Shown one piece after another: positions 1 to 23,339 of a stretch of 64,000 nucleotides of DNA. The number at the start of each line of letters is the position of its first letter. The stretch's first letter is position 1. The notes beneath the pieces are model-generated. The model had not been told where the DNA came from. It did not search any database and saw nothing but the letters and a program-made list of their open reading frames with translations. A program made the position numbers and the translations under genes. The DNA comes from Bacteroidota bacterium (lineage in GTDB: Bacteria; Bacteroidota; Bacteroidia; 2-12-FULL-35-15). The DNA lies in assembly GCA_029237775.1 (NCBI GenBank), contig JAQZBR010000010.1, forward strand, positions 1 through 64,000, written 5' to 3'.

Positions 1-39
1 GCGGCTAATAGGTCTACGACAACCTAGGAAACGTTATAG
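1..39 (+). other. attC site, 3' end only (cut by window edge)
   Basis: The last bases, AGGAAACGTTATAG, have the same layout as the ends of the complete sites downstream (GGGAACGTT plus variable bases). The presumed cleavage point is between G33 and T34, so cassette 1 starts with TTATAG. The left arm is outside the window. The core does not fit GTTRRRY strictly. Confidence 0.6.
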
Positions 40-132
40 TTCACCCGTTTTCCTTTATTGAAATTTAAACCTATATTTAATACTTTGCAAACTAAAGGGA
101 AAACGTTACCAGTAATGTGCCGAGACATCGAT

Positions 133-774
133 ATGACAAAAATATTCTCAATAATAATTACACTTTTCTTTCTGACAAATTGTACGGACAGACAAAAGAC
201 CTCAGACAATCACACCGTTGACGGTGCCGAGACAAATCAGTATTGCCTTTTAGGCTTGCAAAAATTTCAAGCGGGGGACTTTAACGAAGCAGTTAAACTT
301 TACAGCCACTCTTTCGAACTAGACTCTACTAATACTGAAGCGATCTATATGAGAGGACTTTCGAAAGGAAAATTGGGCGATTCAAAAGGTGCAATTTCAG
401 ACTACTCTATTCTGATTTCAATTTCTCCAAATGACGCTGTCGCTTATTCTAATCGAGCAAACGAAAAAGCTAAACTTTCAGACAATGATGGTGCTTTAAA
501 AGACTATGAAGCTGCAATTAAAATAGATTCAACAATATCCGACAACTATCTAAACCTTGGCGCTCATTTTCTAATACTCAAACGATTGCCTGACGCTGAC
601 AAAGCACTAAGTAAAGCAATTGAACTAAATCCAAATGACCCTCGTGCGTATCATAATAGAGCGTTAGCGCGTGGCGACATGGGACAAGAGGAACTAGCCT
701 GTTCAGACAGTAAGAAAGCATTTGAACTCGGGTTGAAAGAAGCTGAAGACGATATTAAAGACTATTGTAAATAA
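133..774 (+). CDS. TPR-repeat lipoprotein (integron cassette 1)
   Basis: The protein has 213 residues. The start chosen is the ATG at 133 because it gives a short positive N-terminus, a hydrophobic stretch and a lipobox-like LTNC, so it is probably lipidated and anchored in the envelope. A longer reading from 58 would bury the signal peptide. The rest consists of consecutive tetratricopeptide repeats (motifs such as YMRGLSKGKLGDSKGAISDY and AYSNRANEKAKLSDNDGALKDY), and the end carries a short cysteine-containing tail seen in other Bacteroidota TPR proteins. TPRs mediate protein-protein contacts; no enzymatic domain is visible. It is the only gene in its cassette and probably depends on an outside promoter. 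Family assignment is firm; the biological role is unknown. Confidence 0.85.
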   Translation: MTKIFSIIITLFFLTNCTDRQKTSDNHTVDGAETNQYCLLGLQKFQAGDFNEAVKLYSHSFELDSTNTEAIYMRGLSKGKLGDSKGAISDYSILISISPNDAVAYSNRANEKAKLSDNDGALKDYEAAIKIDSTISDNYLNLGAHFLILKRLPDADKALSKAIELNPNDPRAYHNRALARGDMGQEELACSDSKKAFELGLKEAEDDIKDYCK

Positions 775-794
775 TCTGTGTGTGGCACACATAC

Positions 795-925
795 TGGTAA
801 CACAGGTCTGGCGCCATTTGGACATTTCGCTTCGGAAGACAAATTGAACTAACTTTGAAATCAGGCTTCGCAATTAAAAATATAGTAAGGAACCCAAACG
901 AGCGCCAGGCCTGGGAACGTTACCA
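795..925 (+). other. attC site, family A (copy 1)
   Basis: The R'' box TGGTAAC (795-801) and core GTTACCA (919-925) are exact reverse complements. Inside them lie arms CAGGTCTGGCGC and GCGCCAGGCCTG, which pair with one mismatch. The site is 131 bp, the same length as the copy at 2805, to which it is about 90% identical by eye. The 5' box does not complement the start of its own cassette (TTATAG), unlike the next three cassettes. Confidence 0.82.
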
Positions 926-941
926 GCAACCTTAACGACAA

Positions 942-1538
942 ATGAAAATCCTACTGCGATTAATTCCTATTCTTATTGTCGGATTATTTTTAGACCATAT
1001 AATAATCGTTGACTCCGACAGTAGTTTTATTCTGACAGGAATGATGTTTGGTTTAGTAAGTATCATTTTTCTCTTATTATTTTGTTGGGTTCTTTATAGA
1101 GACCAAAGAATTTATCGGGCGACCTCAAACAAACTTAACTTCATACCGACAATTGCAGGACTGCTTTTAATTTTGTCATTTTTCGTTACGAGTTACGTAC
1201 TTTCGTTGCGCGACAAATCACCTAAATTACTACAAGCCGCATATGACGGAGGATATAACGGTGCATGGTTCGAATTCAGAGAAGATGGAACTTATAAGTT
1301 TTGTAACAGCAGCGGGATCGGTGTAGACTATTTTAGAGGAAAATATTCAATGACCGACACTATAATTACTCTTGACAAAATGAATATTGACAATGTTATT
1401 AAAAGCAACAAGCTAGCGATCAGACAAAATCTAAGCTTGGCTTCCCCGACAAAAGAGATTTATCAGATCAACGACAACCATGCTATGGTAGACAAGAACT
1501 TTGTGTTTACAGTAAACTTTGACAACCGGAAAAAATAA
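942..1538 (+). CDS. Membrane protein with C-terminal soluble domain (cassette 2)
   Basis: The protein has 198 residues and I do not recognise the family. Three hydrophobic segments are visible: about residues 4-24, 29-52 and 67-90. A soluble, beta-rich region of about 100 residues follows (GAWFEFREDGTYKF, then RGKYSMTDTIITLDKM), resembling the small lipocalin-like or copper-resistance-type domains common in Bacteroidota hypothetical proteins. The ATG lies 17 bases after the preceding core site and the gene fills its cassette, leaving little room for a promoter. Function is not assigned. Coding status is supported by the intact frame and its position between two attC sites. Confidence 0.75.
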   Translation: MKILLRLIPILIVGLFLDHIIIVDSDSSFILTGMMFGLVSIIFLLLFCWVLYRDQRIYRATSNKLNFIPTIAGLLLILSFFVTSYVLSLRDKSPKLLQAAYDGGYNGAWFEFREDGTYKFCNSSGIGVDYFRGKYSMTDTIITLDKMNIDNVIKSNKLAIRQNLSLASPTKEIYQINDNHAMVDKNFVFTVNFDNRKK

Positions 1539-1544
1539 GGCAGC

Positions 1545-1719
1545 TGGTAACACCGGCTAAGCACAATTGCGGCTTTTTGCAAGTCGCAAATGCAAATTAA
1601 GGTGCTTCGCGAAATTTCTGGCATTTGCTAATTTCCTTTTGTACTTTTAATGAACTTTATCGGTTAAGACAGCTTTGCTTTTTAAATCCGCAACTGTGCC
1701 TAGCCGGAAACCGTTAGCG
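1545..1719 (+). other. attC site, family B (copy 1)
   Basis: R'' is TGGTAAC (1545-1551) and the core is GTTAGCG (1713-1719). The R'' box is the exact complement of the start of its own cassette (TTACCA at 920). Arms CCGGCTAAGCAC and GTGCCTAGCCGG pair with one mismatch. The interior holds a conserved 24-bp block (1628-1651) that is identical in the other two family B copies. At about 175 bp it is long for an attC. Confidence 0.8.
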
Positions 1720-1751
1720 GTCATTGTAACAGACGACACAACAAGCAGCAA

Positions 1752-2645
1752 ATGAAACAGACATTTATTTATATTGCGTTGACAATTGTCATGTTGACAT
1801 CTTGCAATAATAAAACAGAAGAGATAAATAAAAGTATGGCGACAACAACAAGTGACAGTTTGACTTTTAAGAACGGCTATTCCGAAGTGAATGGACTCAA
1901 AATGTATTATGAAGTTCATGGACAAGGCAAACCAATTGTTTTAATTCACGGTGGAGGTTCAACCATTCAGACAAATTTTGAAAAAATCATTCCACTTTTT
2001 GCTAGAACCAGACAAGTAATTGCCGTTGAACTTCAAGCTCACGGACGGACTAATGACCGTAAAGCTGACCTTACGTTTGAACAGGACGCAGATGATGTTG
2101 CTACACTTCTTAAAAACTTAAAAATTAACAAAGCGGACTTTTTGGGTTTTAGCAACGGTGGAACAACTACTTTACAAATCGCAATTCGACATCCTGAATT
2201 AGTTAACAAAATGATTTTAGGTTCAGCACTTGCCAAACGAAACGGAGTTCCTGATTGGTTTTGGGGCTTCATGGAAAATGCCAAATTGGAAAATATGCCT
2301 GAGCTTTTAAAAGTTGGTTACAAAAAAGTTGCAATAGACACGAATGGTTTGCAAGTAATGCACGACAGAGATGCAAAAAGAATGGTAAACTTCAAAGACA
2401 TTCCAGACGAGCAAATCAACTCCATTAAAGCTCCAACTTTAATCATTATTGGCGACAAAGACGTTATTACTCCCGAACACGCTATTGAACTTCACAGACA
2501 TATTGCAAACTCTGAATTAGCAATAATTCCAGGCGGACACGGACAATATATTGGAGAAATTACAACAGTAACAGCCGACTTTAAAGAAAGCGACCTAGTA
2601 GTTCCAATGATTGAAAAGTTCCTCGACAAAAAGCCAACAAAATAA
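1752..2645 (+). CDS. Alpha/beta-hydrolase lipoprotein (cassette 3)
   Basis: The protein has 297 residues. The N-terminus is a lipoprotein signal with lipobox LTSC (Cys18), so it is likely tethered to the envelope. The alpha/beta-hydrolase fold is clear: oxyanion-hole HGGG at 66-69, nucleophile elbow GFSNG with Ser134, an acid candidate in GDKD (Asp235 or Asp237), and catalytic His263 in GGHGQY. These match serine hydrolases that cleave esters, lactones or similar bonds; the substrate cannot be read from sequence. The ATG is 32 bases after the core site. Relatives are common in Bacteroidota and also as integron cassette cargo. The triad is complete, so an active enzyme is expected. Confidence 0.9.
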   Translation: MKQTFIYIALTIVMLTSCNNKTEEINKSMATTTSDSLTFKNGYSEVNGLKMYYEVHGQGKPIVLIHGGGSTIQTNFEKIIPLFARTRQVIAVELQAHGRTNDRKADLTFEQDADDVATLLKNLKINKADFLGFSNGGTTTLQIAIRHPELVNKMILGSALAKRNGVPDWFWGFMENAKLENMPELLKVGYKKVAIDTNGLQVMHDRDAKRMVNFKDIPDEQINSIKAPTLIIIGDKDVITPEHAIELHRHIANSELAIIPGGHGQYIGEITTVTADFKESDLVVPMIEKFLDKKPTK

Positions 2646-2680
2646 TCCTGACCAACACGACAGAAAGAAAAACAACGAAC

Positions 2681-2811
2681 CGCTAACTGGGAACACTTAT
2701 AGTATTTGGTGACGCTGAAATTATTTATTACGAAGGTGAGGGGCCGAGCGACAGGTGGATAAGTAAGACGCGAAATTAAATATGATAGACAGATGAACTA
2801 CTGGTGCTAAC
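2681..2811 (+). other. Vestigial attC and gene-less cassette scar
   Basis: CGCTAAC (2681-2687) is the exact complement of the start of cassette 3 (TTAGCG), so it is the original R'' box of that cassette. It is followed at once by TGGGAACACTTATAG, which looks like the last bases of an attC (compare GGAAACGTTATAG at the left edge) with the core G changed to C. The middle of the site is missing. About 100 bases without a gene follow, ending in a new R'' box, TGCTAAC (2805-2811). I read this as an internal attC deletion plus a remnant cassette. Confidence 0.55.
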
Positions 2812-2935
2812 ACAGGTCTGGCGCCATTTGGAAATTTCGCTTCGTAAGACAAATTTGAGTAAATTTAAAATCAGGCTTCGCAATTAAAAACATAGTAAGA
2901 AACCCAAACGAGCGCCAGGCCTGGGAACGTTATAT
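2805..2935 (+). other. attC site, family A (copy 2)
   Basis: R'' is TGCTAAC (2805-2811) and the core is GTTATAT (2929-2935). The arms CAGGTCTGGCGC and GCGCCAGGCCTG and the 131-bp length are the same as in the copy at 795. Differences cluster in the spacer and in the last core bases, as expected because those bases belong to the following cassette. Confidence 0.85.
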
Positions 2936-2944
2936 GCAATTATT

Positions 2945-3430
2945 ATGAGACGTACACTGACTGCAACAACGATAATATTCTTTTTATCGTTTACGTTGCG
3001 CGGACAGACAGATCGTTCTCACGTTAAGAAGTTTGATATGGTACCCCACGTTGGATATGCGTGGCAAGGAACAAGTAATTTTGAATTAGGACTTTCTCCT
3101 TTAATATTATTAGACGCTTTTAAAAACCATAACAATATCGGTTTGGCAGTTGCAGCAAATCTTTTAATACTTAACGGGTCGACCTATTTCACTCCTTCTA
3201 CTCGCCTTAGACTTTTTATCCATAAAAGAAAACTTCCAGTAGGTTGGGAATGTTCGGTCGGACATTCATACACAAACATTAATAAAAATTACGACCATCG
3301 ATTAACGCCAGAAGTCGGAATTAACTGGCGCGGGTTTCATTTGACGTACGGGTATAATATTCCATTAGACCATTACACGGATAGCTATACACTGAACCAT
3401 AGGATCGCATTAAGATATGGCTCACATTAA
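2945..3430 (+). CDS. Small secreted, beta-rich protein (cassette 4)
   Basis: The protein has 161 residues. The N-terminus is a Sec-type signal (MRRT followed by hydrophobic residues to about 18, cleavage probable near RGQ). The mature part alternates polar and hydrophobic residues with aromatic girdle-like positions (VGYAWQ, LGLSPLILL, RLRLFIHKRK, LTYGYNI, RIALRYG), which suggests a small outer-membrane beta-barrel or half-barrel. I do not recognise a named family. The ATG is only 9 bases after the core site and the stop is 7 bases before the next R'' box, so the cassette is almost entirely coding. Confidence 0.72.
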   Translation: MRRTLTATTIIFFLSFTLRGQTDRSHVKKFDMVPHVGYAWQGTSNFELGLSPLILLDAFKNHNNIGLAVAANLLILNGSTYFTPSTRLRLFIHKRKLPVGWECSVGHSYTNINKNYDHRLTPEVGINWRGFHLTYGYNIPLDHYTDSYTLNHRIALRYGSH

Positions 3431-3437
3431 TAACTGC

Positions 3438-3626
3438 ATATAACACCGGCTAAGCACGATTGCGGCTTTGTGCATTTCGAAAATGCAAATTTGGATGCTT
3501 CGCGAAATTTCTGGTCCCGAAAGCTTTCGGGACTAATTTCCTTTTGTACTTTTAATCATTTTTATTGGTTTAGACAGTTTTCCTTTTCAAATCCGCAACT
3601 GATGCCTTAGCCGGGAACCGTTAGGC
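3438..3626 (+). other. attC site, family B (copy 2) with inserted palindrome
   Basis: R'' ATATAAC (3438-3444) exactly complements the start of its own cassette (TTATAT at 2930); the core is GTTAGGC (3620-3626), a perfect GTTRRRY. Arms ACCGGCTAAGCA and TGCCTTAGCCGG pair imperfectly. A perfect 20-bp palindrome (3513-3532) with CCCGAAAGCTTTCGGG at its centre is present here, decayed in the copy near 4661, and absent from the copy at 1545. Confidence 0.85.
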
Positions 3627-3662
3627 GCCTTTTTAAAAGGCAGAACTCCATATAATGTTAGA

Positions 3663-4553
3663 ATGAAAAATTTATATATTTTTTTTTGTTTCTTTTATAG
3701 TTTTAATTTAATTGCTCAACCTATAAGGCCAAACGTATTGATTGATCTGATTGACATTGATTATATCGACACGACAATAAAACAGAACAAGTCGTTTGCA
3801 TTATTGCATCATATCAAAGAAATTTCAGGCATATTATTTAGACCAGAGACTAAGGACTCAATACTTGAATTTGTCGAACAATACGATGAAACCGGAAGAA
3901 TCCAAAATCGAAAATTTCTCATTGGTAAATCTTACTATTGGTTGACCTATAAGTATGATAGTATAAATCGATTATCTTCATTCACTAAACATGCGTCCTC
4001 CGAGGATTCAACGAAGATAATTTATAATCAGGAAAATCGGGTAGGTAAACTAATTCTTTATAACCCAAGGCATTATTGGACGGATAGCATGTACTATTAT
4101 CCAAATGGAAAATTAAAGAAAGTTGACTTCCATCACTTTTTTTATGATAAGAACTGGAACTTAACTTCGGTTGTTTATTTACATAAAAATTCAAAAAACG
4201 ACACTGTAGAATTGAACCTATATGACACGAACGGCTGTCTTTTAGCTCATTTTACAAAAGGGATGGATATATTTCAAAACAAAACTGACGAAAAATGTCT
4301 GCCACAAGAAACTTACTGGATCAATTACGGTAATATAAATTCAATTAGAAAATCTTTTGAACAAATAGACTCTAAAACAATATATGAATATGAGCGCAAT
4401 AAATTGGTTCAAGCAACATACTATTTTTATAAAAAACAATTATTTAGGAACAGGAAGAAATTAACAAACACGTTTGCACACAAATACAGCTATTATGATA
4501 ATGAATTACTGAAAACAGCAGGGAATCGACAATTTTATTATAAATATTATTAA
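3663..4553 (+). CDS. Secreted YD-like repeat protein (cassette 5)
   Basis: The protein has 296 residues with a signal peptide (about residues 1-19, ending near LIAQ). The mature protein is rich in Tyr, Asn and Lys and contains loose repeats of the pattern YD-x-x-N-x-L (YDSINRLSSF, YDKNWNLTSV, YDTNGCLLA, YEYERNKLVQATYY, YYDNELLKTAG), reminiscent of RHS/YD or MORN-variant repeats in Bacteroidota exported proteins. No RHS core cleavage motif or toxin tip is visible and the length is far short of an RHS toxin. Function unknown. It begins 36 bases after a core site and is the last gene with attC-like sequence on both sides. Confidence 0.72.
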   Translation: MKNLYIFFCFFYSFNLIAQPIRPNVLIDLIDIDYIDTTIKQNKSFALLHHIKEISGILFRPETKDSILEFVEQYDETGRIQNRKFLIGKSYYWLTYKYDSINRLSSFTKHASSEDSTKIIYNQENRVGKLILYNPRHYWTDSMYYYPNGKLKKVDFHHFFYDKNWNLTSVVYLHKNSKNDTVELNLYDTNGCLLAHFTKGMDIFQNKTDEKCLPQETYWINYGNINSIRKSFEQIDSKTIYEYERNKLVQATYYFYKKQLFRNRKKLTNTFAHKYSYYDNELLKTAGNRQFYYKYY

Positions 4554-4660
4554 AGACCTACGACTAACAAAATCATTGCGAAACGCACGTCTAAGGACAC
4601 GTAATTGCAAGAAAGACGTATGACGGTTTCTTTAAAAATACTTCCCACTATAGAGCAGAA

Positions 4661-4818
4661 CGACTCAATTAGATAGTGCTTGGTGCATTTCGTAAATGCA
4701 AATTACGGTTCTTCTCGAAATTAATCTCAAAGCTTCCTGGACTAATTTCCTTTTGTACTTTTAATAAGTTTATAGGAAAATGGTCAATCAAGCTCCTTAG
4801 GCACAAATCACATTAACG
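4661..4818 (+). other. Decayed attC, family B (copy 3), at the array end
   Basis: Alignment by eye with the site at 3438 shows the same order of blocks: TGCATTTCG, AAATGCAAATT, CTCGAAATT, a broken version of the CTTTCGGGAC palindrome, then the 24-bp block (4742-4765) identical to 1628-1651 and 3532-3555, then CCTTAGGCAC. The terminal core is degenerate (ATTAACG, 4812-4818) and the arms no longer pair well. A possible R'' box, GACTAAC (4562-4568), lies just after the gene. Probably inactive. The 277-bp gap between the flanking genes holds nothing else I can recognise. Confidence 0.6.
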
Positions 4819-4830
4819 AATAGGAATCAT

Positions 4831-6006
4831 ATGAGAGAATATAAAATATCCAAACCTTGGGCAATTTTTATTTACATAACAACCCCATTATTAATTGCAC
4901 TGTTTTGTTGGATGCTGATAATGCCTTTTATACCGGCAATGAGGGGTGATGTAAATTCAAATGCATACTGGATCCTCGTTCCGATTTCATTGGGGATGAT
5001 TGCATTGATGGTTATGGGATTATTGGACACTATCAAAGGCAAATTCGTTATCGATAAAGATCAGATATATAGCGAAGGTGTATTTTCAAAACGAGAGCTG
5101 ATGCTCCATGAGATTAAGGGATTTCGAGTAACCGACAAATACATATTCATTGAATCAAATAATAAAGAAAAAAAGAAAATAAAGGTCAGCATATATTTTG
5201 GAAACAAAGATGAAATTATAGAATGGTTGGCAGAACACTACCCGAATCTTGACCTTGTCCAAGCTAACCGCGAACATGAAGAAATATTAAAAAGCAAAGA
5301 GTTTGGCTCGTCCGCAGAAGAGAGGGATCTTAGATTGATTAAGGCGCACAAAACAGCTAAAATTCTTAACTGGACTGGTGGTATAATAGCAGTCTGGACT
5401 ATATTTCTAGCAAAGCCATACGAGTTATCGATTATTGCATCATTAGTATTTCCAATCGTCTGTCTGATTATAATAAAATACTATAACGGACTAATCAGAG
5501 TTGACGAAAGAAAAGGGACGGCCTATCCCACCATTCTTTTTGCAATGATGTCAGGAACGGGGATTTGTGTAAGAGCCTTACTGGATTATAATATTTTCGA
5601 CTACTCAAATGTCTGGATGCCATCGATAATTATTACGGTATTGTATATGGCAGTTCTATTATTGGGTAACAAAGAATTTAAATTTAATAAAGCAAAAGAC
5701 TATATGTCAATCATCGCAATTTCATTCTTTATGTTTGCGTACGGGTATGGCTCTGTAATAAGTATAAATTGTTTCTACGACAAATCACAGCCTGAAATAT
5801 TCAATCCCACAGTTTTAAGTAAAAGAATCAGCTCCGGAAAACACACAAGCTATTATTTAGAGGTAACACCCTGGGGACCACAGAAGGAAATTGACGAAGT
5901 ATCAGTTTCCAGAGATCTATACAGTAGGCTCGAACCGAATGACCAGTTGAATATTTATTTCACAAAAGGAAAATTTGATATACCTTGGTTTGAAGTAACG
6001 GAATAG
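4831..6006 (+). CDS. Polytopic membrane protein with PH-like insert, unknown family
   Basis: The protein has 391 residues. Two hydrophobic segments (about 11-36 and 44-65) precede a soluble segment at about 70-140 that looks like a bacterial PH-like fold (KFVIDKDQIYSEG, LHEIKGFRV, KKKIKVSIYFG). Then come five or six further membrane segments (about 177-330) and a soluble beta-rich tail ending in FDIPWFEV. I do not recognise a named family. No attC lies between this stop and the next gene, so it is probably not a cassette. Either it was at the chromosome edge of the array or it belongs to a cassette whose site is gone. Confidence 0.75.
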   Translation: MREYKISKPWAIFIYITTPLLIALFCWMLIMPFIPAMRGDVNSNAYWILVPISLGMIALMVMGLLDTIKGKFVIDKDQIYSEGVFSKRELMLHEIKGFRVTDKYIFIESNNKEKKKIKVSIYFGNKDEIIEWLAEHYPNLDLVQANREHEEILKSKEFGSSAEERDLRLIKAHKTAKILNWTGGIIAVWTIFLAKPYELSIIASLVFPIVCLIIIKYYNGLIRVDERKGTAYPTILFAMMSGTGICVRALLDYNIFDYSNVWMPSIIITVLYMAVLLLGNKEFKFNKAKDYMSIIAISFFMFAYGYGSVISINCFYDKSQPEIFNPTVLSKRISSGKHTSYYLEVTPWGPQKEIDEVSVSRDLYSRLEPNDQLNIYFTKGKFDIPWFEVTE

Positions 6007-13389: not shown

Positions 13390-15237
13390 CTACGAGCTGC
13401 CTAACTTCCTACTCACCCAGCTATTCACCATCTCCTCAAGTATATTCAAAGGTACAGGCCCTGAGGTCAACACTACATCATGAAATTCACGGAGGTCAAA
13501 TTTATCTCCTAACTTATTCTTGGCATTCTCTCTCAATTCGATGATCTTATTCATACCAATTTTATACCCGGTTGCCTGAGAGGGCCAAACGATGTAGCGC
13601 TCAATTTCTTTTTTGTTATCACCTTCCGGATTTGGTGTGTTTTCCTTGAAATAAGCCAACGCTTTTTCGCGGCTCCATTTTTTCCTATGAATGCCGGTAT
13701 CAACTACCAGGCGTGCTGCGCGGAAAAGCTCCATTGCCAGTCGCCCAAAATCCGAATACGGATCCTGATAAAAACCGATCTCCTTCGGCAGCTTTTCTGA
13801 ATAAAGTGCCCAGCCTTCCACATAGGCAACGTTTCCTCCATGCATCCTGAACTTAGGCACACCTGTCAATTCTTGCGCTATCGCGATCTGCATGTGATGT
13901 CCCGGAATCCCTTCATGATAAGCCAAAGCCTCCATCTGGTAGGTCGCCTGATCGGCCATGTTATACAAATTGATATAGTAACGTCCCGGACGTGAGCCGT
14001 CCGGAGCAGGATCTTCATAAAATGCACCTCCTGCAGATTTTTCCCTGAACGCTTCCACAGGCTTTACAACACAATCTGCTTTTGGTTTTGTAAGGAAGAG
14101 CTTATCCAGCTCCTTTTTCATATCATCAATGATCTTCACTGCCTTTACACGGTAAGCTTCTTTTCCTTCTGCAGTGTTTGCGTAATAGAATTGTTTATCG
14201 GTACGCATGAAATCAAAAAACTCCTGAAGGTTATCACTTTTAAAATTCACCTTCTTCATGATCTCACGCATCTCATTATGAATGCGCTCCACTTCTTTTA
14301 ATCCGATCTCATGGATCTGGTCAGCAGTCAGATCCGTTGTGGTTGTCATTTTTAAAGCTGCATCATAAAATGCATCACCCTCCGGCAGCTTCCAGGCACC
14401 GTCATCAGTAGTTGATTTTTTCTCCAGCTCAGTCCAGTACGCGATCAGTTTTTCATAAGCGGGTTTCACCGAGTTAACAAGTGCATCGCTTGCTTTTTTA
14501 ATGAGCTCTTTTTTACCGGCATCATCAACATCTTTCAGGACATTTACTTTTTTAGTGATGTCATCAAGAATGGGGTTCAGCTCCTTCGATTTGTCAAATG
14601 GCTGTCCGCTGATCACATTCTTACAATCGTTAAGCACATAAGGGAAAACGAATTTCGGTGGAATAATATTCTTTGCTTCGCGCAGCTTCAGATTAGTTAT
14701 CATCACATCAAACATGGGAGCCACTTTGTCTAATCGCGAGATATAAGCTTCCGCATCCGTTTTGTTGTCTACGTTGTGAACATTAATAAGGAATGTTGGC
14801 ATATCCACATGCATTCCTCCCATCTGGTTAACCGGATAATCATGCAAGTGCCATCTGAAATTATCAATGCTTTGTTTCGCATCATTTTCGAACAGGCGAT
14901 AGCTGATCTGAGTTTGTTCATCAAGTGAATTAAGATCGAATTGTTTTAATGAATCTAGATTGGCTTTATCTATCTCAATTTCTTTTTGAGAATGCTCTTC
15001 ACTGATGTCAGACCATTGATCATAATTCTTTTTTATCCCAAGCAATGCGGCCTTTACCGGATCACGATCCACTTCCCGGTCAAATACGCGGTCAAAAAAA
15101 GCGTTTGCTTTGGCGCTTTCTGACTTGATCTCATCTGCAGAATAGGTTTTATTATCTGTTGTCTTTTCTTTATCATTTCCGCATGCAGCGAAGATCAATG
15201 ATAAAGCAAGGGAAGGAAGAATGATCTTTTTTTTCAT
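13390..15237 (-). CDS. DUF885-family peptidase lipoprotein
   Basis: The protein has 615 residues, full length for the family. The signal ends in lipobox FAAC (Cys19), so it is an envelope lipoprotein. The zinc-binding HEGIPGHH at about residue 440 is the hallmark of DUF885 proteins, which resemble M2/M32-type metallopeptidases; a downstream GWALYSEKLPKE helix supplies the third-ligand glutamate. The N-terminal two thirds are helical (KANAFFDRVFDREVDRDP at the start). The likely role is extracytoplasmic peptide turnover. It is transcribed alone. Confidence 0.9.
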   Translation of the reverse strand: MKKKIILPSLALSLIFAACGNDKEKTTDNKTYSADEIKSESAKANAFFDRVFDREVDRDPVKAALLGIKKNYDQWSDISEEHSQKEIEIDKANLDSLKQFDLNSLDEQTQISYRLFENDAKQSIDNFRWHLHDYPVNQMGGMHVDMPTFLINVHNVDNKTDAEAYISRLDKVAPMFDVMITNLKLREAKNIIPPKFVFPYVLNDCKNVISGQPFDKSKELNPILDDITKKVNVLKDVDDAGKKELIKKASDALVNSVKPAYEKLIAYWTELEKKSTTDDGAWKLPEGDAFYDAALKMTTTTDLTADQIHEIGLKEVERIHNEMREIMKKVNFKSDNLQEFFDFMRTDKQFYYANTAEGKEAYRVKAVKIIDDMKKELDKLFLTKPKADCVVKPVEAFREKSAGGAFYEDPAPDGSRPGRYYINLYNMADQATYQMEALAYHEGIPGHHMQIAIAQELTGVPKFRMHGGNVAYVEGWALYSEKLPKEIGFYQDPYSDFGRLAMELFRAARLVVDTGIHRKKWSREKALAYFKENTPNPEGDNKKEIERYIVWPSQATGYKIGMNKIIELRENAKNKLGDKFDLREFHDVVLTSGPVPLNILEEMVNSWVSRKLGSS

Positions 15238-15555
15238 GTACTTGTTCTGCTTTACGCAATCGATCGTGTTTATTTGAATACCTGCGATCGCATTAAAAAT
15301 AAATAATTTATCAAGGCAAACTTAACGAAATACTTTGGGATTATAAGCTATTTCAGTTCTATTTTAAAGAGCTCAATTGGCCAAAAAGTCACTCAACAAT
15401 TCAAAGTATTTTATCTGCTCAGCACCCGCCTGAAAAGAACAGTACTTTCGCAACGGCAACGTTTTTATGATTTATCAAAAATTTTTTTTCATTGCAAAAT
15501 CTGATTATATTTAGTTCTTAAAACTTCGCGTATCTGGCGGCTAAACTGTGATAAA
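15238..15555. promoter_or_regulatory. Divergent intergenic region with candidate promoters
   Basis: This 318-bp gap separates the leftward DUF885 gene from the rightward giant cargo gene. Two candidate -7 boxes face right: TACTTTCG at 15443-15450 and TATATTTA at 15506-15513. Both are one base off TAnnTTTG. No repeats or RNA genes are seen. Confidence 0.35.
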
Positions 15556-18500
15556 ATGAAATTAAGATCCTTGCTCATTTCCCTTTTAATTGTCAATGTT
15601 ATTTACTCACAAAACAAGGTTGTCGTTCCTGTTTATGCGGGGCCAAACAGCAGTGTCGGGTTTCTCTACAGTGTTGACACTACAGGCACCCAAAACGTGC
15701 ATATACATGATTTTACAAAGGCAGCAGATATCGGAACGAACAAATCAAACAAAATGATCAGGCACAGTAACGGGATGTTTTACGGAGTGACTGCGAAAAC
15801 ACTTGAACATCCTGGTTGCTTTTTTGAGTTCAACCCGAACAATTATTCATTTAGAAGCATAAGGAATTTTGATTTTAAAGCAAACTTCGAAGACCCAAAC
15901 GGTCAGCTGTACGAAGCTTCCAATGGGCATGTATATGGCACCATACCAAACAATTATAATTTCGGGGGAGCTGCCGGAATATTTGAATATGATCCGACAA
16001 ACGATTCTTTGGGTGTATTCTTTTCGTTTGGCGTCCAAAATTTAAGCTACGGGACAATTAATTCAAGCTCCCGGATCGACACGAATTTTACATACCTCGT
16101 GTATGACCATTCATCTATTTATAAACTTGATCATCACAGCGGCTCGTTAAGCCTGGTCCACTTTTTCAGCGCAGAAGAAGGCACACCAACTTCAGGATTA
16201 TCTTTTTCAAATGGTAAATTTTACGGTGTGCTTGATGCGAATGTAGCAGGAGGATGCGGCAGTATTTACAGCATTGATCCCTCCAATGACCAGTTTCAGA
16301 TCGAAGCTTCGGGAGCAGCTTCAGGAATGGTATTTGGGTCCTTTACACCCGCACCTTCAGGGATTCTTTACGGCATAGGATTTACTGCCTTAAACGATCC
16401 GTTCATTTTCAAATACGATCCTGCCACCGACTCGGTCAGCAGACTGTTCATGTTTGATGATTATTTAGTTAAAAGCTATCCCTCACATGGCGCCCTGTAC
16501 GTGATAGGAAATAAATTATATGGCCTCGCCAATGAACAGAACTCAAATCTGTTAGATTACGATATTCCTTATGTTTTCAGCTATGACCTCAACACGAATG
16601 TTTTCACTAAGGAGCACTATATTGATGTTGCAGTAGCCGGACAAACAATTAGAGCCAGTGTGGCAAGTGGAAATGACATTATTGTTTCCAGCTCAGATTA
16701 CGGTGCAAACGGAGCAGGATCATTATATAAATACAACGTGGTCTCTCACGCAGTAACGGTTATTGAAGACTTCGGGCCATTACATGAATACCCTACATCC
16801 ATGATCATTAATTCTGCGGGTAAGCTTGTCACCACCAATGAAAATGGTGGCTCCTATTATTACGGTGAATTATATCAATACGACCTTACTTCCAATACGT
16901 ATTCGGAAATATATCCCTTTACTGCCGACTCCACCTTTGGAGCTAACCCGACCGGTTTCTTATGCGAATTGCAGCCGGGTACATATTTATGTAATACCAA
17001 TTACGGAATACAATATCAGAGCGGGACTTTAGTGATCCTTAATCCTGCTTCGGGCTCAAACAAAATCGTTTATCCGCATCAGCAAACAAATGTAACGGAT
17101 CCTGCCGGAGAACTTGTAGAATCTAATGGCTACCTGTACGGCCTTTCAGTCCTAGGCCAGATCTACAGAATCAACATGCAAACGCGGTTTTATGAAGGCC
17201 TCGCTACGGTTCCCGATGGCAGCCAGCCAAAAGGAGGGCTGACAATGGCTGCTAATGGCAGGTTTTATGGTACCTGCTCAACAGGTGGCACCGGCACCAG
17301 CGGAACACTGTTCGAATTCGACCCGGCAACGCATACTGTCGTAACGAAGATTCACTTCAGCAGCGTGCTGCACGGAAAGAATCCTTGCGGAACAATGATC
17401 CTTGCTCCTGACAATAAACTATACGGAGTAGCCACATTAGGAGGAAATTTTGGCGGAGGAACAATGTTTTCTTATAATCCTGCAAACAACACGATAACAA
17501 AACTGACTAATCTCGGTACGGGCACGATTGTAGGAAAATGGCCAGAGGAAGGGCTCCGACAGATGAATGCCACCGATCTTATCGGAACGATGTCTGCAGG
17601 CGGAACAAATTCAAAAGGTTCTTTATTCAAGTATAATTATGTGACCAATACTTTCACAGAGCTGGTTCACTTTACCACTACCTCCGGTATCAATCCTGAA
17701 AGTTCTCCCCTCGAATACAACGGAAAGGTATATGGCCTAACGTATGGCTCGGGAGTTTCTTCACGAACCTGCATTTTTGAATTTGATCTGTCAACAGGCA
17801 TTTTAAGGCCGGTTTATAAGTTTCAATATTATGAGAACGGATCGTACCCTAAGGGTGTGCACCTCCACAATGGTAAATATTATACGTTTATTGCCACGGA
17901 CAATATCATCCAGGAAAATGCACTATGGGAACACGACCCCTTAAGCAATACCGGCCAAAAGATCAGATTATGGACCTCTCCCTTGATGGGAACCGGGAAT
18001 ATGAGGGTCACTGAGGCTACCAATGGATTCTGGTACATCAGCTGCAGTTCAGGAGGTGCCAATAATCTAGGAACCATTGTAAAGCTTGACCCGAACACTT
18101 TTACAGCCACAAAACTACTGGACAGAGATTCAATAATAAGCGAGAATACGGGAAAGCTTCAGGAGTATAATGGAAGTCTTTATAATTATTCGGTGAGATA
18201 CGGATCGCCAAATACAAATGGATACATATATAAATTCGACCTTTCTACCAACACTTATTCGGTCATCCAGGATTTCAATTCGGTGGGTTCACTTTATTCA
18301 CCTACTTCTATGGTAGTAGATCAAAACGGCTTCGCATATTGTTATTCAAATTATGGAGGAGTAAATCAACCCAGCACAATAAAAAAAGTAAACCTTAACA
18401 CAGGTGCAATTGTTGGTAGCTCTACACTTCCTGTCAACAGCGGCTATAATCCGAACAATAATTTAGTGTTGGCTTCGAATGGATTTCTATATGCTTCCAC

Positions 18501-21284: not shown

Positions 21285-23339
21285 ATGAAAAAGATCATAA
21301 CCTTATTAGCGATTGTTTTTTCGACAGCGACCATCCTGGCACAAAACGTTGAGTTCACGAAAGAAAATTTCAAGGAAAATAAAGACGGTCTGAAAGAGGC
21401 AAGAAACAACATCGAAGCCGGTGATAAATTTTTTGAGCAGGGCTCTGTGTTTTATAAGCAGGCAATCGATCCTTATCTTCTTGCAAATAAATTTAACCCT
21501 AACAATGCCCTTCTTAATTTCAAGATAGGGAAGAGTTATTTGTATTCGAACTTTAAATTAAAATCAATTCCATTTCTTGAAAAGGCGATCCAGTTAAACC
21601 CGAATGTTGATCCTCAGATCCATTATGTTATGGCAAAAGCATACCATTTGGATATGCAATGGGATAAAGCTATTTCAGAATATAAAGCCTTTCAATCCAC
21701 TATTAAAGATGTAGGTGAATTTAAAGAACTTATAGAGGAAGTAAATAAACACATCACTGAATGTTTGACAGGAAAGGAAATGGTGAAAAATCCACTTCGT
21801 GTTTTTGTTGATAATGTTGGCGCTGAGATCAACTCTCAATATCCGGACTACGGGCCTGTAATTTCAGCCGATGAGTCGGTAATGCTTTTCACATCCCGCA
21901 GGCCAAATACTACCGGAGGATTGATCGATCCGGGCATCAATGAATTCTTCGAGGACATTTATATCACCACAAAAAAAGACGGCAAATGGACTCCTGCGCA
22001 AAACATGGGTAAACCGGTTAACACAGAGGATCATGATGCGAATTCAGGCTTATCTGCTGACGGACAACGTTTCCTTATTTACATTGGAAAGAATAACGGT
22101 GATCTTTACGAAGCAGAATTAAAAGGTGATTCATGGAGCAAGCCTGAACGTATGAACAAGAATATCAATACTGATTTCCACGAATCCTCTGCATGTTATA
22201 CTCCTGACGGCAAGTCGGTTTACTTTGTTTCAGACAAACCGCAGGATGGGCTCGGTGACCGCGACATCTTTATGTCTGTGAAAGATGAAAAAGGCAAATG
22301 GGGTAAGGCTGTTAATCTGGGACCTACAATAAACACTCCTTACGGTGAAGAAGGAGTATTTATTCATCCTGACGGCAAAACAATGTATTTCAGTTCTCAG
22401 GGGCATAAAACAATGGGTGGTTATGATATTTTTAAAACCGTGCTGGAGAACGGAAAATGGTCAACACCTGTAAACCTTGGATACCCTGTTAATACGCCTG
22501 ACGATGACGTATTCTTTGTTACCTCTGCAAGTGGTAAGCATGGATATTATGCATCGTTCAATGCTAATGGATTCGGGGAAAAAGATATTTACATGATCAC
22601 ATTCCTTGGAAATGAAAAACCGATGGTGATGAACAATGAAGATAATTTAATAGCAAGTCTTACTGCTCCGGTTAAAGAAACGGTGATGGCTCCTGTAGTG
22701 GAAATTAAAGATGCTCAGCTCACGATATTAAAAGGTGTAGTGACAGATGATGTTACGAAAAAACCGCTTGAAGCGACTATCGATATCGTTGACAATTTAA
22801 AGAATGAAATGATCGCAAGCTTTACTTCGAACAGCGCATCAGGAAAATACCTCGTATCACTTCCTGCAGGACGTAATTACGGGATCGCAGTAAGAAAAGA
22901 TAATTACCTTTTCCATTCTGAGAACTTCGACATTCCTAAAACCGCGGCATATTCTGAAGTTGTAAAGGATGTTGCCCTGAAGAATATTTCGGTTGGAAAC
23001 AAGATCGTTTTAAAGAATATCTTCTTTGATTTCGACAAGGCTACATTACGCCCTGAATCAACAAATGAGCTGGAGCTGCTTATAAAATTACTCCATGATG
23101 TACCAACATTGAAGATCGAGATCTCCGGACATACTGATTCAAAAGGTGCAGATGCTTACAACAAAACATTATCAAATAACCGCGCTAAATCTGTTGTTGA
23201 CTATCTGATCGCCAAAGGTATTACAGCCGATCGCTTAACTGCAGTTGGTTTCGGGGAAGAACAGCCTATCGGTTCAAATGATACCGAAGAAGGAAGACAA
23301 ATGAACAGGAGAACCGAGTTTAAGATCCTGAGTAAGTAG
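21285..23339 (+). CDS. PorE-like OmpA-family protein (TPR, PD40 propeller, CRD, OmpA)
   Basis: The protein has 684 residues. Domains in order: signal peptide (about 1-20, ending ILAQ), an N-terminal TPR region (about 40-165), WD40-like PD40 repeats forming a propeller (about 185-440, with SADESVMLFTSRR, SADGQRFLIY, TPDGKSVYFVSD, HPDGKTMYFSSQG), a carboxypeptidase-regulatory-like domain (about 480-560) and an OmpA C-terminal peptidoglycan-binding domain (FFDFDKATLRPES, SGHTDSKGADAYN, LSNNRAKSV). This order is that of PorE, a T9SS-associated protein that anchors the machine to the cell wall. Paralogues with the same layout exist, so the PorE label is likely rather than certain. Confidence 0.85.
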   Translation: MKKIITLLAIVFSTATILAQNVEFTKENFKENKDGLKEARNNIEAGDKFFEQGSVFYKQAIDPYLLANKFNPNNALLNFKIGKSYLYSNFKLKSIPFLEKAIQLNPNVDPQIHYVMAKAYHLDMQWDKAISEYKAFQSTIKDVGEFKELIEEVNKHITECLTGKEMVKNPLRVFVDNVGAEINSQYPDYGPVISADESVMLFTSRRPNTTGGLIDPGINEFFEDIYITTKKDGKWTPAQNMGKPVNTEDHDANSGLSADGQRFLIYIGKNNGDLYEAELKGDSWSKPERMNKNINTDFHESSACYTPDGKSVYFVSDKPQDGLGDRDIFMSVKDEKGKWGKAVNLGPTINTPYGEEGVFIHPDGKTMYFSSQGHKTMGGYDIFKTVLENGKWSTPVNLGYPVNTPDDDVFFVTSASGKHGYYASFNANGFGEKDIYMITFLGNEKPMVMNNEDNLIASLTAPVKETVMAPVVEIKDAQLTILKGVVTDDVTKKPLEATIDIVDNLKNEMIASFTSNSASGKYLVSLPAGRNYGIAVRKDNYLFHSENFDIPKTAAYSEVVKDVALKNISVGNKIVLKNIFFDFDKATLRPESTNELELLIKLLHDVPTLKIEISGHTDSKGADAYNKTLSNNRAKSVVDYLIAKGITADRLTAVGFGEEQPIGSNDTEEGRQMNRRTEFKILSK

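Follow-up and report, generated by a model that had tools for sequence, protein, structure and literature searches.

Classical integrons are described by the shape of their recombination sites and by a feature of their integrase, IntI. The classical attC site has an unpaired central spacer on both sides of the hairpin and extrahelical bases on its R''–L'' arm (PMC2727003), and, according to PMC2426708, earlier surveys called a gene intI only when it had an insertion, the "additional domain." The one complete integron that IntegronFinder 2.0 reported for Bacteroidetes proper was in Salinibacter (PMC9024848), and the taxon-specific attC models do not include this phylum. Here, we analyzed a 64,000-nucleotide stretch of DNA from a Bacteroidota bacterium (GenBank assembly GCA_029237775.1, contig JAQZBR010000010.1), hereafter the window; it opens contig C2 of a 4.08-Mb genome in 12 contigs. 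Positions 1–4818 of the window contain five open reading frames (ORFs), all rightward, with long imperfect palindromes between them. Judging from its sequence, we read this array as the distal end of a chromosomal integron that belongs to a Bacteroidota type in which the classical IntI has no part, and we put the probability of this reading at roughly 0.88.

Cassette ends, hairpin sites and movement of cassettes

Each cassette was delimited by its adjacent sites. A relaxed GTT/AAC test was used together with a covariance model; a rule based on a TAAC/GTTA stem misses sites with CAAC or GTTG. In the window, the start of each of cassettes 1–4 was the exact reverse complement of the end of the same cassette over 9–10 nucleotides, including the GTT (Table 1). 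A first-pass annotation of the window had noted this mirroring in the first six bases of cassettes 2–4; the match proved to be longer and to include cassette 1. In cassette 5, an own-end match was looked for and none was found. The pattern recurred in two sets of cassettes. In a first set, 28 of 30 cassettes matched perfectly at the 4 bases after GTTA (shuffle mean 1.8, maximum 10). A second set comprised 13 loci read with the covariance model, of which only two came from genomes used in building it, and here 73 of the 77 cassettes matched at 5/5 bases after GTT (within-array shuffle mean 14.2, maximum 28). As a control, the two ends within a single site, being those of neighboring cassettes, matched in only 7 of 123 cases. 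Because the R'' box is the end of one cassette and the bases after the GTT are the start of the next, the R stem would be perfect only in a circular cassette.

To describe the sites themselves, we aligned 50 sites, taken from this genome and others and picked by the stem rule. Their TAAC and GTTA ends were invariant and were followed by unpaired bases, one on the R'' side and five on the R' side, and then by a long stem. Sixteen pairs were counted in this stem, each with compensatory changes, and the covariation score was 0.619, compared with 0.143 in shuffled and 0.06–0.11 in slid controls. The cassette-end complementarity described above is unbiased in this respect because it had no role in choosing the 50 sites. 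When folded as single-stranded DNA, the bottom strand was the more stable in 44 of the 50 sites (mean −2.9 kcal/mol), as in classical attC sites, and in 19 of 54 control windows. The folds drawn for four sites had a four-base bulge on one side only, and site 1 of the window was drawn as a single-stranded hairpin. In class 1 cassettes, the unpaired spacer was mostly 6–8 bases on both sides where our scan delimited the site, a comparison that covers ∼7 distinct sites, the scan having missed several known class 1 sites. The classical two-sided spacer was not found in the 50 sites (1 vs 5 nucleotides).

A covariance model built from these sites, R1, detected four sites in the window (E = 2.7e-5 to 4.8e-20). 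The scores of sites 1 and 3 are partly by construction because both were in the training set; sites 2 and 4 were outside it. An Rfam search of the window gave no match. The description of five rightward genes parted by attC-like elements, given in the first-pass annotation, is borne out by the ORFs and by these four sites, and the array it proposed is real. The run of sites, in contrast, had to be corrected: cassette 3 has a collapsed attC, an ORF-less remnant follows it, and the site after cassette 5 has decayed, so that the genes are parted by four model-supported sites, one collapsed site and one decayed site. Among the results that the same annotation had named as speaking against an array were a failure to fold into single-stranded hairpins and an identical gene order in many relatives. 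The sites do fold, and in 36 genomes of the same genus the gene order was not conserved, because the matches to the window array lay nearly all in the site segments, and the cargo matched weakly, with 66–68% identity to parts of one gene.

Comparisons between genomes show that cassettes move as units. Four near-identical single cassettes (97–100% identity) were found in different genomes, across species and families. An 842 bp cassette was 100% identical between Flavobacterium fragile and genome G246, the integrase regions of which were 67% identical, and it lay directly at the attI in G246. A 1340 bp cassette was 99.9% identical between Chryseobacterium lacus and G235, a ∼1440 bp cassette was 97% identical in three families (G125, G107 and G111), and a 698 bp cassette, 99% identical, was located at the attI in locus L088 and in mid-array in G125. 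In these cases, the identity started at a GTT and ended at the next GTT where both sequences continue, the flanks were unrelated, and each block of identity comprised exactly one gene and one site. A further case of perfect sharing, between G096 and F. limi (L099), was discarded as the same genome.

The integrase, its attI-like site and their distribution in Bacteroidia

The R1 model gave 10 matches in the whole genome, all within three array pieces at the starts of contigs C1, C2 (the window) and C3, and DNA copies of the sites were likewise confined to these contig starts. On C3, a 375-residue integrase, P0001, is encoded at 4350–5477 on the minus strand; after it, in the same orientation, come an attI-like leader and cassettes. 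The attI-like site (C3:4226–4360, locus L008) lies ∼100 bp from the integrase and ends in TATATAAGTAA|GTT. The suggestion in the first-pass annotation that the window holds the distal end of a chromosomal integron thus gained support, as the same type of array continues on other contigs beside an attI-like site and an integrase. Its alternative suggestion, an array that has lost its integrase, was set aside for the same reason, and its description in terms of a classical IntI/attC system did not hold, since both the IntI insertion and the two-sided spacer are missing.

P0001 scored 216.3 bits against the integron integrase model TIGR02249, below the curated cut-off of 265 bits, and the genome contained no protein above that cut-off. 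The model aligned to P0001 in two pieces, leaving profile positions 182–237 unmatched, and residues 179–242 of the Vibrio cholerae IntI4, for which a structure has been solved, had no counterpart. Similarly, the distance from the RxxE to the HxxRH motif was 91–98 residues in every array-associated integrase measured and 133 in both IntI1 and the IntI of G164, the sole canonical IntI in Bacteroidia. As far as sequence can tell, P0001 is a tyrosine recombinase that lacks the ∼42-residue IntI insertion and is not a classical IntI. Its catalytic residues (R229, K254, H318, R321, H344 and Y353) were invariant across 40 homologues. P0001 passed the cut-off of the XerA-type model NF040815 (231.6 vs 220 bits) and did not pass those of the IntI models. 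An AlphaFold model had good local confidence (predicted local distance difference test score, 88.5; predicted template modeling score, 0.63), and a fold search with it, with modest overall fit, does not discriminate between the families because IntI4 and XerA tied as the best matches. In a joint tree, IntI fell among the non-Bacteroidota homologues (96 by the Shimodaira–Hasegawa-like approximate likelihood ratio test), with long branches and only two IntI references; for these two reasons, a claim about origin drawn from this tree was set aside.

We inspected 80 named homologue loci, of which 32 showed sites. In all 32 loci, the cassettes pointed away from the integrase: 22 were co-oriented and downstream, 10 were divergent, and there were no exceptions. 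Many of the remaining loci end a few hundred bases past the 3' end of the integrase, as repeats would cause. To locate the attI, the start of the first cassette was predicted from the R'' end of the first site and then sought in the integrase leader. In 30 leaders, a GTT was found whose next bases match the end of the first attC, nearly all over ≥ 6 bases. In the co-oriented clade, this GTT was typically 86–119 bp from the integrase, and a conserved TATA-like motif preceded it. The window belongs to the co-oriented clade, whereas the divergent arrangement, which is the classical one, occurred in several clades (L139, L141, L134, L140, L148, L153 and L119), and therefore the orientation of the integrase has been switched more than once. 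In divergent-clade attI regions (L141, L148 and L119), TATATTTG was located just ahead of the GTT. This motif is the Bacteroidota −7 promoter consensus, and it is possibly the cassette promoter.

R1 sites were detected in 185 of 247 Bacteroidia genomes, or about three quarters; the site counts for single genomes are lower bounds, because no more than 13 candidates were scored in each. At a threshold of E ≤ 1, neither six class 1 integron plasmid loci nor the canonical Bacteroidia integron of G164 gave an R1 match. Among eight genomes of other phyla with an integrase homologue, seven had no match at E ≤ 1e-5 and the eighth had one weak match. A canonical IntI above the cut-off was found in 1 of the 247 genomes, and that genome had no R1 site. 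The first-pass remark that integrons are uncommon in this phylum is therefore right for the canonical IntI and wrong for the type described here. A P0001-like integrase (E ≤ 1e-45) was present in 136 of the genomes, and sites were found in 131 of these 136 and in 54 of the 111 genomes without the gene (Fisher p = 5e-19, which is optimistic given the relatedness of the genomes).

Three further occurrences of the system were noted. In the Chryseobacterium sp. SNU WT5 plasmid NZ_CP041688.1 (L205), an integrase (14983–16026) is followed by R1 sites at 17380, 18096, 20495, 23549, 24973 and 28615; as the array is on a plasmid, the system can also be mobile. Inside this array (L205:19281–20282 and 21747–23063) are an IS110 transposase and a group II intron, and known IS110-type elements and group II introns target classical attC sites. 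A metagenome-assembled genome (MAG) titled Limnohabitans sp. MAG20 (G282, L135) and labeled as a betaproteobacterium contained 77 R1 sites and a Flavobacterium-like integrase, and is probably mis-binned or mislabeled. In Candidatus Kapaibacterium (G283, L123), R1 sites occurred together with a divergent integrase that falls outside the main group of Bacteroidota matches, and on this evidence the system may be older than Bacteroidia.

These data bear on three other explanations. The sites may form a real cassette system on which a different recombinase acts, for example the chromosomal XerC/XerD or the integrase of a distant element, the neighboring integrase being a passenger. The 54 site-bearing genomes without a P0001-like gene fit such a system, as do the homologues at L103, L129, L144, L147, L150 and L152, near which there are no sites; even so, we regard it as improbable, given that adjacency and polarity are invariant in the 32 loci, that the attI keeps a fixed distance of ∼90–120 bp in the co-oriented clade, that nearly all integrase-positive genomes have sites, and that newly moved cassettes sit at the attI beside the integrase. 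Still less probable is a decayed classical integron, that is, a cluster of attC sites lacking an integron integrase (CALIN), in which canonical attC sites have outlived their IntI and an unrelated Xer-like recombinase lies nearby by chance. The GTT/AAC core and the logic of the cassettes are classical, and the distal end of the window is decayed at the sites of cassettes 3 and 5, but the near absence of canonical IntI from Bacteroidia, the blank R1 results in the class 1 loci and the canonical integron, and the different unpaired spacer all argue against this explanation. Finally, the sites are long imperfect intergenic palindromes that are repetitive within the genome, but that they are repeats (repetitive extragenic palindromes or elements like miniature inverted-repeat transposable elements) or transcription terminators is very unlikely, as neither the cassette-by-cassette complementarity nor the GTT-to-GTT blocks would be expected of them and the sites in this genome are confined to arrays. 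We therefore retain an integron with its own, non-IntI integrase as the preferred reading.

Layout of the window array and of the other array pieces

The features of the array are summarized in Table 1. R1 gave no match at the remnant at the contig edge, the upstream part of which falls beyond the contig break, and it missed the decayed terminal site. By BLAST, copies of site 2 with 78–94% identity were present in C1, C2 and C3. Ordinary chromosomal genes run rightward from position 4831 as far as examined.

Table 1. Cassettes and attC-like sites at the left end of the window (all on the + strand)
Feature	Position	Content	Own-end match or R1 result
attC right-end remnant(s) at contig edge, low confidence	1..104	GGAAACGTTATAG at 27-39, GGGAAAACGTTACC at 97-110	
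Cassette 1	106..919	ORF 145-774, TPR protein (Pfam TPR)	start GTTACCAGTA at 105, end TACTGGTAAC finishing 801
attC-like site 1, short type	791..929	TAAC 798-801, GTTA 919-922; in training set	87.1 bits, E 1.5e-17
Cassette 2	920..1713	ORF 942-1538, membrane protein, no Pfam match	start GTTACCAGC at 919, end GCTGGTAAC finishing 1551
attC-like site 2, long type	1541..1723	TAAC 1548, GTTA 1713-1716; outside training set	61.4 bits, E 2.3e-11
Cassette 3	1714..2690	ORF 1752-2645, alpha/beta hydrolase (Pfam Abhydrolase_1)	start GTTAGCGGT at 1713, end ACCGCTAAC finishing 2687
Collapsed attC of cassette 3 (sequence reading)	2679..2702	R'' CGCTAAC abuts TGGGAACACTTATAG (2681-2702), hairpin deleted	
ORF-less remnant cassette, ~230 bp	2691..2929	carries its own site	no own-end match
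attC-like site 3, short type	2801..2939	in training set	97.4 bits, E 4.8e-20
Cassette 4	2930..3620	ORF 2945-3430, outer-membrane beta-barrel-like (weak YaiO)	start GTTATATGCA at 2929, end TGCATATAAC finishing 3444
attC-like site 4, long type	3434..3630	82% to site 2; outside training set	36.1 bits, E 2.7e-5
Cassette 5	3621..4818	ORF 3663-4553, no Pfam match	
Decayed terminal attC-like site	about 4678..4818	BLAST 78% over 99 bases (4678-4776) to site 2	

The cassettes of the C3 array encode a sulfatase-modifying-factor-like protein, two small proteins, a DUF6933 protein and another small protein. The DUF6933 protein (L008:1665–2195, minus strand) also matched the PADLOC candidate defense family PDC-S63. 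It was the one candidate in a defense-gene search of ten cassette proteins of this genome, and the window proteins among them gave no match. In the cassettes of F. terrisoli, 0 of 10 had a Pfam match. Contig C1 carries a second attI-like leader (C1:2756–2861, L044), 86% identical over 106 bp to that of C3, with its own cassettes. Only the C3 leader has an integrase beside it; such an orphan second attI is an unusual arrangement. The gene ahead of the C1 leader is presumably MazG-like, a name that we gave from its sequence. C1 and C3 both break at the same IS110-like end, which is situated inside a site (L008:1–180 and L009:1–180).

Interpretation and comparison with known systems

Judged by sequence comparison, the array has the functional features of an integron: an integrase, an attI, cassettes, sites with a GTT/AAC core, polarity and the movement of units cut at G|TT. 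Because these features were found, and neither the IntI domain nor an attC of classical shape was, we use the term Bacteroidota integron with a non-IntI integrase. The system would be integron-like in its working and outside the IntI family as presently defined. In the mechanism that we propose, a tyrosine recombinase would be encoded beside an attI from which mostly single-gene cassettes read away, each ending in a hairpin site of ∼125–185 bp. The bottom strand of the site would fold, and its R'' and R' ends would pair and rebuild the GTT/AAC core, at which the recombinase would cut between G and TT. The cassettes would leave as circles and re-enter at the attI or at another attC. The acting enzyme, the strand used, the circular intermediates, the lack of promoters in the cassettes and their expression from an attI promoter are what we infer from these comparisons.

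Several points weigh against this interpretation. All the evidence for recombination comes from comparing sequences, and some of the shared-cassette pairs involve MAGs. Choosing the 50 sites by the stem rule inflates their paired fraction. In the 54 genomes with sites and no integrase at the threshold used, the gene may be lost, divergent or unassembled. The window array is most simply the distal continuation of the C3 or C1 array, a join that we drew across a break at the IS110-like end. The insertion is held to be essential for IntI activity (Messier and Roy, 2001, as cited in the excerpt of PMC2426708), and in the excerpt of PMC8138268 it is not fully conserved in an "integron-like" subgroup, yet essential for integron function. 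If the insertion is essential, the mechanism here must differ in detail.

We somewhat favor the wider view that Bacteroidia have a widespread integron class of their own, in which the integrase never had or has lost the IntI domain, the attC sites are co-adapted to it, and a largely separate cassette pool is shared across families and is invisible to current tools; this class may preserve a lineage near the origin of IntI. Integrons are considered almost absent from Bacteroidota. If the view is correct, about three quarters of Bacteroidia genomes have recognizable sites of an integron system that escapes standard searches, because these depend on the IntI domain and on an attC of classical shape. 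There would then be a large uncharted pool of mobile genes, hairpin cassette recombination would be possible without the IntI insertion, and the evolution of integrons from Xer-like recombinases could be approached directly. In the open-access literature, preprints excluded, we found no description of the system; subscription journals or preprints may hold one.

Compared with the classical integrons, including the sedentary chromosomal ones of Vibrio, Xanthomonas and Treponema, the present system is alike in its integrase, nearby attI, single cassette orientation, GTT/AAC core, own-end complementarity, bottom-strand hairpin, new cassettes at the attI, and cargo mostly of unknown function. It differs in that the integrase has no IntI additional domain, and in that the sites have a one-sided unpaired stretch and conserved stem mismatches, in place of a two-sided spacer and bulged extrahelical bases, and a longer R pairing (GTT + 6–7 bases). 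Archaeal XerA resolves chromosome dimers at dif. P0001 passes the cut-off of the corresponding model (NF040815, recomb_XerA_Arch) and aligns with XerA (5hxy) along the entire catalytic part; unlike XerA, its gene adjoins an array of hairpin sites and an attI. The NCBI name of NF040815, "site-specific tyrosine recombinase/integron integrase," implies no array. The Bacteroidota enzymes probably fall in the "integron-like" tyrosine recombinase subgroup of Smyshlyaev et al. (2021; PMC8138268), the excerpt of which links no cassette arrays to members without the insertion. Lastly, the CALIN and Bacteroidetes integrons of IntegronFinder 2.0 (PMC9024848) are alike in being integron components in the same phylum; unlike those integrons, the arrays in this study are common and have an integrase of their own.

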